Shown: positions 33,364-43,163 of the stretch, piece by piece
How the letters are laid out: the number at the start of each line of letters is the position of its first letter
Position numbering within the stretch: the first letter of the stretch is position 1
NCBI RefSeq assembly: GCF_900182635.1
Contig: NZ_FXTD01000005.1
Location: 62,001 to 126,000, forward strand
Source of the DNA: Halorubrum cibi
GTDB taxonomy: Archaea; Halobacteriota; Halobacteria; Halobacteriales; Haloferacaceae
Direction: 5' to 3'
DNA: 64,000 nucleotides
Notes under the pieces: generated by a model
Seen by the model: the letters and a program-made list of their open reading frames with translations, nothing else
The model's database searches: none
Told to the model about the DNA's origin: nothing
Position numbers and translations under genes: made by a program

Positions 33364-33413
33364 CCTCACGTCGGACCCTTTTAGACGCCCGAACGAGTAG
33401 CGCCGAACGGCCG

Positions 33414-33497
33414 ATGACGATCCACCGCTCCGAGCCGGACTCGGCACCCGGCCACGACGAGCCCTATGAGTGCCGAGGCCGCCATTTTCGACGGTAG
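33414..33497 (+). pseudogene. Truncated small rubrerythrin-like protein remnant
   Basis: An ATG at 33414, about 30 nt after TTTTAGACGCC, opens a 27-codon frame ending DEPYECRGRHFRR. The PYEC segment resembles the first half of the CxxC knuckle in small haloarchaeal rubrerythrin-like zinc proteins, but no second CxxC follows. The frame is broken off inside the 15-bp direct repeat at 33467-33481, and a matching ECRGR sequence continues at the second repeat copy (34386). It may therefore be a gene split by the VapBC-bearing insert. This is an inference. Confidence 0.3.
33467..33481. repeat. 15-bp direct repeat, left copy
   Basis: TGAGTGCCGAGGCCG occurs here and again at 34386-34400. The two copies enclose the toxin-antitoxin pair; the spacing start-to-start is 919 nt. 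It looks like a target-site or recombination duplication. Confidence 0.7.
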
Positions 33498-39916: not shown

Positions 39917-40567
39917 CTACCAGGCGGACCAGGCGGTCAGGCTCTCATCGCGGCCGTACATCCGCTTGAGGTCCTTCGCGTACGCCATGTCGCCGGCGTG
40001 ATCGAGTTTCTCGTGGCGGTACTCGGGGGCGTCCTCGCGGATGTGGAGCCCCTCGATCGTGAACTCCTCGTCGCCGAACTCGACGGTCTCGCCGACGACG
40101 AACTCCATGTCGCCGGGGACGTTCACGCGAACCGATCGGGTCCTGTCGGCGTCCCCGTCCTTCGGGTGGAGCGTGACGTCGACGGCGACGTTGTCGACTG
40201 CGCGGGTCCACAGCGTCTCGACGCTGGTGATCGCGGCGTCTTCGACGCGGTGTTCGGGGCCGAGTTCGATGCCGGTGATCCGGACCTGCATCAGCGCGTC
40301 CTCGGTGTCGACGACGAACTCCTCGCCGGTCTCGACGCCGCCCTCGGCGGGAACCTCCATCTCGGTGGTGAAGGAGTCGCCGCCCTGCGAGACGACGATC
40401 GTGAGGTCGATGGTCTCCGTTTCGGGGATCTCGGCTTTGTGCGTGTGGCCGCAGTCGGTACACCGGACGGTGGCCTGGCCGCCGGGTTTCAACACCTCGT
40501 GGACGGTCTCCTCGCCCGGCGAACACGACGGGCAGACGAGACCGACTCGGTCTCCGGTTTCGGTCAT
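39917..40567 (-). CDS. HVO_0476-type zinc-finger protein
   Basis: This 216-residue protein has an N-terminal zinc ribbon made of CPSCSPGEETVHEV and CTDCGHTHKAE (two CxxC pairs near residues 12-40), followed by a domain rich in beta strands (residues about 50-200) with EYRHEKLDHAGDMAYAKDL at the end. It matches a haloarchaeal family that, from memory, is annotated as an HVO_0476 family zinc finger protein. The role is not known; the zinc ribbon suggests RNA, DNA or protein binding. It is convergent with the M20 gene. Confidence 0.85.
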   Translation of the reverse strand: MTETGDRVGLVCPSCSPGEETVHEVLKPGGQATVRCTDCGHTHKAEIPETETIDLTIVVSQGGDSFTTEMEVPAEGGVETGEEFVVDTEDALMQVRITGIELGPEHRVEDAAITSVETLWTRAVDNVAVDVTLHPKDGDADRTRSVRVNVPGDMEFVVGETVEFGDEEFTIEGLHIREDAPEYRHEKLDHAGDMAYAKDLKRMYGRDESLTAWSAW

Positions 40568-41280
40568 TACGGCGTCGTTCCCGCCGCGCGCGTAAATATC
40601 CGCTCCCCTAGGTCCCGTGTGCGTGCCACTGCCAGCCGTGTACGGGAGAGTGTCATAGGAGATTTTCTACCCAAACAGGAATCGCTCAGTACAGCCACCT
40701 TTTTCATCGTCGGGTGCCCTCGCTCACTGCGTTCGCTTCGGGAACCACTCCTCGAAAAAACCTGGAGGGAAAAAGCCGACTCCGCCGTCTTCGACGGCTC
40801 CGTCGGTGAACCGTTCGCTTCGCTCGCGGATGCTCACTACAGATGAAAGAACGAGCGATCGTGGTGGCGCGCCTGCGAGCGCCCCGCGGGCGCGAGCAGT
40901 CCGTGAGGGACGCGGTGAGCGCTCGGAGAGCGCGAACCGCGAGGCTGGGGAGGTCTGAGGTGCTGGGCGGTTGCGGCCGGGTGGGACTCAAAGGGGCAGT
41001 CGGCTCCGGGAAGACGGCCGACGTAAGGACCGCAGGAGCGAACATAGTGAGCGACGAGGACCGCAGCGAGGCCCTCAACCGGAGCCGACTGGGGCTTTGG
41101 AGATGTTCTCCGCGATCGTGATCACCGCCCCAGCAACGATCTCTTTTTTATTACCTCTAGAATTCACGAAACGCCCGCTCTATAGGCATCCAACTCATAC
41201 AGATGGTTCACAATTCAGACACGAAACGAGATCAGGATCCTCACGTCTCGTTCCCGAGTGCGTGACGCCACGATCACGCT
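40568..41280. other. Long intergenic region with structured repeat sequences
   Basis: This 713-nt region lacks protein genes. It contains an imperfect dyad near 40705-40780 flanked by A-runs, a GC-rich segment (40860-40985), and the strong inverted repeat at 40989-41099. The AT-rich end (41140-41220) shows no recognisable promoter for the minus-strand GNAT gene. Similar segments occur between genes in haloarchaeal genomes, from memory, suggesting a repeated element. Confidence 0.6.
40989..41099 (+). repeat. Inverted-repeat element, possible structured RNA
   Basis: CAGTCGGCTCCGG (40997-41009) is complementary over 13 bp to CCGGAGCCGACTG (41079-41091). A symmetric 3x3 G internal loop and a further 5-bp stem CAAAG/CTTTG (40989-40993 with 41095-41099) extend it. 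The 69-nt loop carries two copies of GGACCGCAG. The structure suggests an RNA or transposon-like repeat. Strand is arbitrary. Confidence 0.5.
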
Positions 41281-41754
41281 CTACTCTCGGCGCAACACGA
41301 GCGCGTCGCCGTCGGCGTACGCGTCCTTCCGCCGATCGACCACGTCGAACCCGCACGTCTCGTAGAGCGCGAGTGCGGCGTCGTTTCCCGGATGTGCCTG
41401 GAGCGTCACGGGGCCGGACACGTCGTCGACGACCGCTGCGAGGAGCCCGCGGGCACGACCCTCTCGTCGGAAGTCGGGATCGACGACGAGTTCCGCGAGG
41501 TGACAGCCGGGACGGGTCGCCGCGTCCACCGGGAGCGCGTAGCCGACGACCGAACCACTCCCCGCGATCGAGCCATCTCCCGCGACCGAATCAGTTTCGG
41601 AGACGCTCACGAATCCCGACCCGATCGCGACCCCGTACTCCAGCAGGTCCGAACTCGGCTCACGGAGGTGTTGCTGGAGGGATCGAACACGGCCGGCGTC
41701 GGCGGGGCGGATCCGCCGAACGCGCGGGTCGGAGTGGGCGTCGAGATCGGTCAT
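41281..41754 (-). CDS. GNAT family N-acetyltransferase
   Basis: This 157-residue protein shows the GNAT fold: an N-terminal acceptor-binding part, the beta-4 strand and motif A region HLAELVVDPDFRREGRARGLLAAV (acetyl-CoA pyrophosphate binding, R-x-x-G-x-A), and the C-terminal NDAALALYETCGFDVVDRR typical of RimI-like enzymes. The serine-rich insert SVSETDSVAGDGSIAGSGS is unusual. ATG 41754 is favoured because GGTGA upstream spaces it as a ribosome-binding site; a GTG at 41763 overlapping the DUF92 stop is the alternative. It is coupled to the DUF92 gene. Confidence 0.85.
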   Translation of the reverse strand: MTDLDAHSDPRVRRIRPADAGRVRSLQQHLREPSSDLLEYGVAIGSGFVSVSETDSVAGDGSIAGSGSVVGYALPVDAATRPGCHLAELVVDPDFRREGRARGLLAAVVDDVSGPVTLQAHPGNDAALALYETCGFDVVDRRKDAYADGDALVLRRE

Positions 41755-41759
41755 CCGGG

Positions 41760-43163
41760 TCACCAGAGCGCGACGCCGACCGCGACGCCGACCGCGACGC
41801 CGACGCCGACGCCGACCGCGAGGGCCGCGCCCGAAAGCGTCGCGAGGAAGTTCACGGCCTGGTTACCGATCCGATCTCCCTCGATCAACGCGCCGAGGGC
41901 GCTGTCGACGGTCATACCGAACACGCCCGCGAGAACGACGACTCCGCCGGGGCGGAGGACGCCGCCGCCGACGACGGGGGCGACCGCCGGGAAGGGAGCC
42001 GTGGCGAGGACGGCGATCAGCGCCGCCCCGACGAGGCCGGCGACCTCGCCCTGCCACGTCACGGCGCCGTCTGTCCCCGGTTCCACCGGCCGGAGCGTCG
42101 TGATCAGCCGCGGATCGTCGAAGAGCCCGCCGATCTCCGAGGAGAGCGTGTCCGACATCGCGGTGGCGATCGCGCCTGCGAACGCGAGCCGGAAGACCGA
42201 TTCGGGGACGGCGACGTGCGGGGCCGCGGCGTAGCCGAGGAGCGCGACGAGCGCGACCGCGGAGTTGGCGAGGACGTTCCCCGTCCCGCGCGCGCCTTGG
42301 TTCTCCTGGGCGACCCCGCGGTCGGCCTTCTCGTCGAACCGGTACTTCGAGGCGAGCCCGCCGACGGCGTAGAAGGCCATCAGCGTGAGGAACCAGGCCA
42401 CGCCGCCGAGCACGACGGTGAGAAGCGAGAGCAGGACTCCGGTGAGCATCCCCGGCACCGAGGCGGCCCCGAGCGCGTAGGAGGCGTAGCCGAGCGCGGC
42501 CGTCACGGCGAGCGCCGCGACGACGCCGACGGCGGTCACGGTCGGGTCGAGCGCAGTGAATCCCCACGCGATCAGCGCGACGACGACGACCGTGATGTGG
42601 GCGTCCCGCGCGTACACGAGCGAGCGGACCAGCGCCGCCGTCAGCACCGCGACGGCGCCGAGGAACGCGAACTCTGGGAGCGAGCCAACGAGCGAGCCGA
42701 TGAGCGCGCCGAACCCGCTCCCGGAGACGATCAGTTCGGCCGTCCCGTCGGAGACGACCTGTCCGGCGACCGCGGCGACGCCGCCGGCGACGAGGTAGCC
42801 GGCGACGAGCCGGAACTCGTCGTCGGAGCGAGTCCGGACGAGTTCGCGACCGAGACGGCCGCCGCCGACCGCGAGCGCGGCCGACGCGAACGCTCCGGCG
42901 GGCAGCGGAACGGGTGGAAACGTGGCGACGGCGGCGAGCCCGGCGAGCGCGAGCGAGAACGCGCCGACGCCGTAGAGTCGCTCTTCCTCCCTGTCGCCCG
43001 GGAGTGCGAGGGTCTCGAACCACTCGCCGTCGCGGATGGCGAGGAGGAACACGGCGGCTGCCAGAAGGAACGGGACGACGGCGGCGGTGCCGACCGCCGG
43101 CGAGAACGCCGCGAGCGCGGCCACCGCGGCGAACACGCTCGCTCGCCTGACCCTCCGATACAC
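41760..43163 (-). CDS. DUF92 family membrane protein
   Basis: This protein of about 467 residues has around ten to twelve membrane helices and matches the DUF92/TIGR00297 family, related to the plastid phytyl-phosphate kinase VTE6. The cytosolic loop DPRLITTLRPVEPGTDGAVTW and SDTLSSEIGGLFDDPRL fit the family, whose active site lies in such loops. It may act as a CTP- or polyprenyl-phosphate kinase, which is inference. The GTG at 43163 lies about 27 nt after TTAAGT on the minus strand; an upstream frame extension is unlikely. The C-terminus is a Val/Gly repeat. Confidence 0.82.
   Translation of the reverse strand: MYRRVRRASVFAAVAALAAFSPAVGTAAVVPFLLAAAVFLLAIRDGEWFETLALPGDREEERLYGVGAFSLALAGLAAVATFPPVPLPAGAFASAALAVGGGRLGRELVRTRSDDEFRLVAGYLVAGGVAAVAGQVVSDGTAELIVSGSGFGALIGSLVGSLPEFAFLGAVAVLTAALVRSLVYARDAHITVVVVALIAWGFTALDPTVTAVGVVAALAVTAALGYASYALGAASVPGMLTGVLLSLLTVVLGGVAWFLTLMAFYAVGGLASKYRFDEKADRGVAQENQGARGTGNVLANSAVALVALLGYAAAPHVAVPESVFRLAFAGAIATAMSDTLSSEIGGLFDDPRLITTLRPVEPGTDGAVTWQGEVAGLVGAALIAVLATAPFPAVAPVVGGGVLRPGGVVVLAGVFGMTVDSALGALIEGDRIGNQAVNFLATLSGAALAVGVGVGVAVGVAVGVALW
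41769..41822 (-). repeat. GC-rich in-frame tandem repeat in DUF92 gene
   Basis: Units of CGACGCCGACCG and the shorter CGACGC run in tandem at the 3' end of the DUF92 gene and encode alternating VG/AV residues in the last transmembrane stretch. Length variation would change the tail without frameshift in steps of 6 or 12 nt. Confidence 0.7.

Follow-up and report, generated by a model that had tools for sequence, protein, structure and literature searches.

A strongly self-complementary stretch in an intergenic interval of Halorubrum cibi raises the question of whether it is peculiar to one locus, one copy of a dispersed element or a member of an RNA family. The window (the whole 64,000-nucleotide stretch of DNA that was analysed) had been read, from its letters alone, as holding a structured repeat here, possibly a noncoding RNA, in a gene-free interval of about 700 nt. 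The flanking ORFs are indeed about 713 nt apart (one ends at 40567, and the next starts at 41281), and the longer ORFs listed across the interval look spurious by judgement. The hairpin was found as described, with a perfect 13-bp stem (40997-41009 with 41079-41091), a symmetric G internal loop, which is GGG/GGG, and a 5-bp outer stem, which is the collar CAAAG/CTTTG; its arms are 40989-41009 and 41079-41099. Overlooked in that reading was a ladder within the hairpin, made up of short Watson-Crick steps with small loops between them and GA/GA near the tip. The further dyads that it placed upstream (about 40700 to 40850) are real, but they belong to a second repeat (element A) and not to the hairpin repeat (element B). 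The parts of the locus are as follows.

40681-40694, + strand: left fringe of B, ending in CAGTACAG and severed by insertion of A; recognized by eye from the uninterrupted left end in the orthologue of genome G044.
40687-40842, - strand: element A, a second dispersed repeat, bounded by CAGTACAG (40687-40694) and CACTACAG (40835-40842).
40843-41188, + strand: element B, one dispersed copy of a structured repeat, with approximate outer limits and a core at about 40861-41114, from own-genome BLASTN and covariance-model matches.
40867-40960, + strand: 5' structured domain, from a consensus fold of 17 copies.
40912-40940, + strand: hairpin GCGGT-GA-GCGCTC-GGA-GAGCGC-GA-ACCGC, from the sequence and from covarying pairs in columns 62-69/86-93.
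40979-40988, + strand: conserved GGGTGGGACT, directly 5' of the collar and largely kept in 111 aligned copies.
40989-41099, + strand: main hairpin, with collar (40989-40993/41095-41099), GGG/GGG loop, 13-bp stem and ladder (41010-41078).
41001-41184, + strand: gene-conversion tract of 184 bp, in common with the copy at G000:C6:145046 (L005) except for a single mismatch at 41128.
41100-41188, + strand: 3' module, running from GAGATGTTC to CACCGCCCCAGCAACGATC, with a T6 run at 41144-41149 and then CACGAAACGCCCGCTCTATA; common to many own-genome copies.

Many own-genome alignments of B stop near 41114 or 41188. Within the 5' domain, GCGCGCC (40867-40873) is predicted to pair with 40952-40957, where the window copy has a single C-C mismatch. 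The domain encloses two GA-loop hairpins, both of which carry compensatory changes among the 17 copies, as well as a conserved GAGGCTGGGGAGG..TGAGG. When the window copy is folded as a single sequence, this arrangement is not reproduced. At the site of GGGTGGGACT, many copies from other genera have GGGTGGGACTGAAAGG. A GNAT-like gene (41281-41763) adjoins the element; among 29 orthologous Halorubrum loci, two truncated ones included, none was found to have a full-length match to it next to the zinc-protein gene. Elsewhere in the window, positions 33409-33480 match the C/D box snoRNA sR-tMet (Rfam RF02163, 74.5 bits).

The suggestion that the hairpin belongs to a dispersed element was borne out by matches well outside the locus. 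With 40 of 202 initial candidates scored, BLASTN gave at least 43 matches in the own genome; it also gave matches in at least 18 of 20 genomes (the own genome and relatives) and at least 39 matches in each of the 12 Halorubrum genomes of that set. The CAAAGGGGCAG block that the sequence-only reading had named recurs across Halorubrum. An exact 19-base block was present in at least 117 stretches, and the 80 matches listed were all from Halorubrum. A covariance model built from 21 own-genome copies (R1) yielded at least 79 own-genome matches at E <= 0.001, of which at least 53 scored over 80 bits; the weakest, at about 31 bits, may be due to chance. Across the order, R1 reached at least 79 of 117 genomes and 35 of 48 genera, and a model built from 57 copies of many genera (R2) reached at least 87 of the 117 sampled genomes and at least 37 of the 48 genera, with none in the other 30 genomes among the matches listed. 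In a phylum-wide sample that included the order itself, 43 of 294 genomes were positive, and all 43 belonged to the window's order. In genera other than Halorubrum, copy numbers reached at least 96 (G037); they were at least 91 in G109, 71 in G018 and 41 in G013, and several genomes had 1. Element B is one scattered copy of a repeat spread across salt-loving archaea.

The core was also present in 23 plasmid records, those named being from Natrinema, Halobaculum, Natribaculum, Halorussus, Haloarcula and Halobacterium sp. DL1. In the 20 plasmid records with annotation, for which the gene table is incomplete, the core match overlapped no annotated feature, and it was intergenic in both of the records inspected. 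Phage records gave no match to a 281-base Halorubrum query. Element B shares with the families of Rfam 15 the kind of evidence on which they rest, a covariance model; it has no match there at gathering scores, and five copies searched up to E = 5 gave nothing over the core, with one chance-level match (E = 2.8) touching the left fringe of the L010 copy. Near that same copy, at positions 205-390 of the locus, lies the sense-overlapping transcript RNA sot0042 (RF02656, 171 bits). No paper in the open-licence PMC literature, supplements aside, was recognized as describing the repeat, and the available parts of PMC10927574 and PMC9067536 hold nothing on it. In the portion of PMC7002113 available, a halite metatranscriptome study, conserved Halobacteria small RNAs with no reported function are described, as is a 209-nt itsRNA of Halobellus limi. 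The repeat appears to be a previously undescribed family of genomic repeats that are structured and may give rise to RNA.

Base changes in the stems are compensated, a point on which the sequence-only reading had said that it could fail. In an alignment of 21 own-genome copies (A2), made by sequence only and with its pair list drawn from its own consensus, 95.9% of cells were paired and 127 carried double changes, compared with 45 in shuffles. Sliding the 3' partner by 1 to 3 columns left at most 40% paired; further pair types, one of five measures, did not exceed the shuffles (93 of 500). An alignment of 57 copies from many genera (A3), which was fitted to the covariance model and hence leans toward it, had 97.1% of cells paired, 476 double changes (128 in shuffles) and a covariation score of 0.639 (0.176 in shuffles); slid versions reached 38%. 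Both alignments thus contained compensatory changes beyond chance, the mark of a structured RNA family, and the fold of B is kept by compensatory change while its sequence varies.

The small loops of the ladder are conserved along with the pairs. GA/GA lay between two ladder steps in 101 of 105 scorable rows, with covarying neighboring pairs; the collar loop was GGG/GGG in 105 of 111 rows, and a further loop had AA with GCA or ACA in 98 of 111. The window copy has ATA as its tip loop; of the 111 aligned copies, 53 have a GNA triloop (GAA, GGA, GCA or GTA) there. The main hairpin ranges from about 105 to 230 nt because extra perfect hairpins sit in some of the loops; in L030, L153, L160, L211 and L092, the inserted hairpins are about 20 to 25 nt long.

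These loops bear on a reading that involves no selection, namely, that palindromes are tidied by template switching in replication together with gene conversion. Gene conversion is real in this family (see below), and in one copy (L067) the GGG/GGG loop has been closed to CCC/GGG, as expected of template switching. Under such a process, however, mismatched loops should vanish, yet GA/GA and GGG/GGG persist beside covarying pairs, and a mutational process gives no reason for an asymmetry between strands. Pure template switching was rejected on the persistence of these loops, and we consider the absence of selection very improbable.

The asymmetry between strands was seen in several measures. 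As RNA, the + strand of the window hairpin folded at -56 kcal/mol (z = -5.9), with none of 200 shuffles as good; the - strand as RNA had z = -4.7, also with none of 200 as good. As DNA, the + strand had z = -3.5 (one shuffle as good) and the - strand z = -4.3 (none). Over 111 copies read on the + strand, G-U cells outnumbered A-C cells, 98 to 37; when pairs with more than 10 G-U cells were left out, the counts were 46 and 30, and, taken per pair, G-U was favored in 13 and A-C in 9. When copies were folded singly (12 of the 111 were excluded because of Ns, length or missing pairs), the fraction of inner consensus pairs recovered was 0.85 for the RNA + strand, 0.51 for RNA -, 0.42 for DNA + and 0.35 for DNA -. 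Mean pair probability was higher on the + strand in 97 of 99 copies folded as RNA and in 62 of 99 folded as DNA. Single-copy folding leans to the RNA + strand because the structure, alignments and consensus were fitted with RNA rules and models; even with that leaning, it speaks for one strand in single-stranded form and against a plain double-stranded palindrome. The RNA half of the sequence-only reading is plausible in this strand-specific form.

A strand-specific fold could belong to the end of a neighboring transcript, and the gene setting of 160 Halorubrum copies, some of them orthologues, was classified with genes called by a crude acidity rule. Three copies lay inside a predicted gene, 11 had no called neighbor and 146 were classified: 49 between convergent genes, 20 between divergent genes and 37 and 40 in the two orientations relative to co-directional neighbors. 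The excess of convergent over divergent settings (p = 0.0006) and the T6 run after the window copy would suit a cis-acting 3'-end element, such as a terminator, mRNA stabilizer or attenuator. Such an element should hold one orientation relative to co-directional neighbors, but that orientation is unbiased (37 versus 40) despite a strand-specific fold. A cis-regulatory UTR element was rejected on this lack of bias, and a 3'-end role of any of these kinds seems quite improbable.

Orthologous sites differ in whether they hold a copy. In G044, the zinc-protein gene (97% identical) adjoins a B that is 73% identical to the window's, and at 25 other Halorubrum loci a short spacer, not B, lies beside this gene, with a separate B about 1.1 kb further off in two of them. 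In G130, a contig end cuts into the locus and the B there is partial; in the flank from G011, no B was found. More broadly, 35 own-genome copies were compared with 800 kb of G044. Both flanks mapped consistently for ten, of which six had B by pattern and four did not (L009 was dropped for inconsistent flanks). On alignment, two of the four (L006 and L010) were clean absences. Of the others, L020 was rejected as an empty site, since its alignment shows a B copy without the main hairpin, and L017 aligned poorly and was not counted. The intergenic DNA was too diverged to yield a clean insertion boundary at base level, and the absent sites could partly be losses rather than sites that were never occupied.

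This distribution bears on whether B could be a family of free-standing host genes for a noncoding RNA, its many paralogues being retained because they serve the host. Such a family would be expected to occur across the order, to covary, to prefer one strand and to keep its fold at orthologous loci, as B does. Against it, copy number runs from 1 to at least 96, with the 30 genomes lacking a listed match; sites differ between close species; and the window copy has no evident promoter. We regard a host gene family as doubtful.

In three orthologous pairs, the hairpins were 80 to 83% identical and the near flanks 92 to 97%; each of the six hairpins still forms the collar, the stem and the ladder, two of them with small departures. 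A fourth pair (L022 and L092; flank 99.7%) had hairpins that were 99% identical, and its two copies differ by a 67-bp insertion in the 5' domain. The tract at 41001-41184 begins within one arm of the hairpin, and in the copy at G000:C6:145046 it leaves a C-A mispair; it is a clear gene-conversion break. Element A adds another kind of change. It was assigned to the - strand because its GA-ladder hairpins are on that strand, and in the own genome it has 11 matches, itself among them; the other 10 are 86 to 97% identical. Of the 11, eight adjoin a B that the model detected and one adjoins a B remnant recognized by eye, and for the most part A occupies the left end of B copies. In the window, A sits inside the left end of B, and it is absent from the orthologous B of G044; from this comparison, A is the younger of the two and has inserted into B.

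Comparison with known repeats starts with REP, BIME and REPIN sequences and their RAYTs. As described in the available parts of PMC2817692 and PMC6006769, these resemble B in being intergenic and of high copy number, with imperfect hairpins, compensatory stem mutations and, for B at some loci outside Halorubrum, inverted pairs. REPs are given there as 20 to 40 bp with a GT[AG]G foot 0 to 2 nt from the stem and a tie to a Y1 transposase, whereas the B hairpin is 105 to 230 nt and its GTGG lies about 4 nt from the collar. Y1 (PF01797) had no match in six of nine copy-rich genomes (G000, G044, G055, G109, G037 and G018, the last 81% complete) and had matches in the other three (three in G126, three in G013 and one in G038), as well as in two of five copy-poor genomes. 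Copy-rich and copy-poor genomes thus occur both with and without Y1, and there is no association either way. Because Y1 was not found in six copy-rich genomes, the own genome included, B was not filed as a REP, and REP/RAYT membership was rejected.

A related possibility is that B, like REP/BIME sequences or PATEs, is folded single-stranded DNA that serves in trans as the substrate of a Y1 transposase of the IS200/IS605 or RAYT type. Mostly intergenic hairpins in dozens of copies, a conserved G-rich 5' foot and the preference for convergent over divergent settings are consistent with this, as are the Y1 matches in G126, G013 and G038 and the head-to-head, BIME-like hairpin pairs at five loci outside Halorubrum (L307, L319, L320, L114 and L116); inverted pairs are not the usual arrangement in the own genome. 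The six copy-rich genomes with no PF01797 match and the length of the hairpin argue the other way, DNA energies predict the ladder poorly, and no long same-strand domains were seen along three chromosomes (21 to 22 top copies each). On balance, a Y1 substrate is unlikely.

The PATEs and SMR-A of Haloquadratum (PMC3119063) are, like B, haloarchaeal, noncoding, palindromic and dispersed, and the insertion of A into B parallels that of SMR-A into PATEs as told in the part of that paper available. PATEs are related there to IS605-type transposon ends, and in description they differ from B; the available text mentions no conserved interior fold, and the string "covari" is absent from it. MITEs share with B their noncoding, dispersed nature, and some Halorubrum copies of B have long imperfect inverted flanks; most copies, the window's included, have no recognizable ends, and the conserved part of B is its interior fold.

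The window copy has no long terminal repeats that could be seen and, upstream of its core, no TATA-like box. Flanks of other Halorubrum copies resemble imperfect inverted repeats, and a TATA-like box lay somewhere in 75 of the 162 upstream flanks and in 98 of the 162 downstream ones; the boxes are concentrated 12 to 15 nt ahead of the core and, past the collar, at about 30 and 63 nt. The TTATAA-like box at -15 to -12 is sharply placed and part of the inverted flank, and it may not be a promoter. Ends of the AGCGGGAGTG type lie further out, with at least one end in 21 of 106 copies and both in 11. Ends that we take to be IS6-like were found on the left in 11, on the right in 14 and on both sides in 6 of 165 copies, with a background of about 1.6% per 500-bp stretch; the six copies with both had 1, 2, 4, 4, 4 and 5 mismatches of 8 in the target duplication, for a best of 7 of 8. 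With three copy-rich genomes having Y1 and a few copies having such ends, some of the spread may be due to ordinary DNA transposition. Neither an autonomous copy nor a recurrent neighboring gene was found; the largest cluster of neighbors covered 8 loci and had a generic response-regulator domain, and an element carried with a linked gene was rejected on the size of that cluster.

From the fold, its strand preference and its distribution, we read B with middling confidence as a nonautonomous dispersed element with a conserved + strand fold, one that most likely works as RNA. Having no protein gene of its own, B would spread rarely to new intergenic sites by an insertion route that we infer, and its copies are remodeled in place by gene conversion between them. 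We propose that it survives because its + strand folds into one specific structure. That strand would be copied into a transcript comprising the 5' domain, a G-rich linker and the long hairpin, in which the collar with its GGG/GGG loop would be followed by a ladder of covarying Watson-Crick steps with small purine-rich loops, and a host or element protein would recognize the fold. A bolder version probably goes too far: that there are order-wide selfish or domesticated archaeal elements whose unit is a large tandem-GA-ladder RNA, with up to about 90 copies per genome, spreading without a Y1 DNA transposase and perhaps in an RNA-guided or RNA-templated manner.

Dispersed palindromes fill much haloarchaeal intergenic DNA and are easily overlooked or misread as spurious ORFs. 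A strand-specific fold across at least 37 sampled genera makes it testable whether such repeats are RNAs, transposition substrates or debris. The covariance model of B can be used for annotation, and B provides a case of gene conversion remodeling a structured element. A further variation concerns the 3' module: in L190, L209, L204, L168 and L193, all from other Halorubrum genomes, a 3' module starting with CTGGGGCTTTGG follows the hairpin as two or three tandem units, and a TTATAA-like box is often present in every unit.
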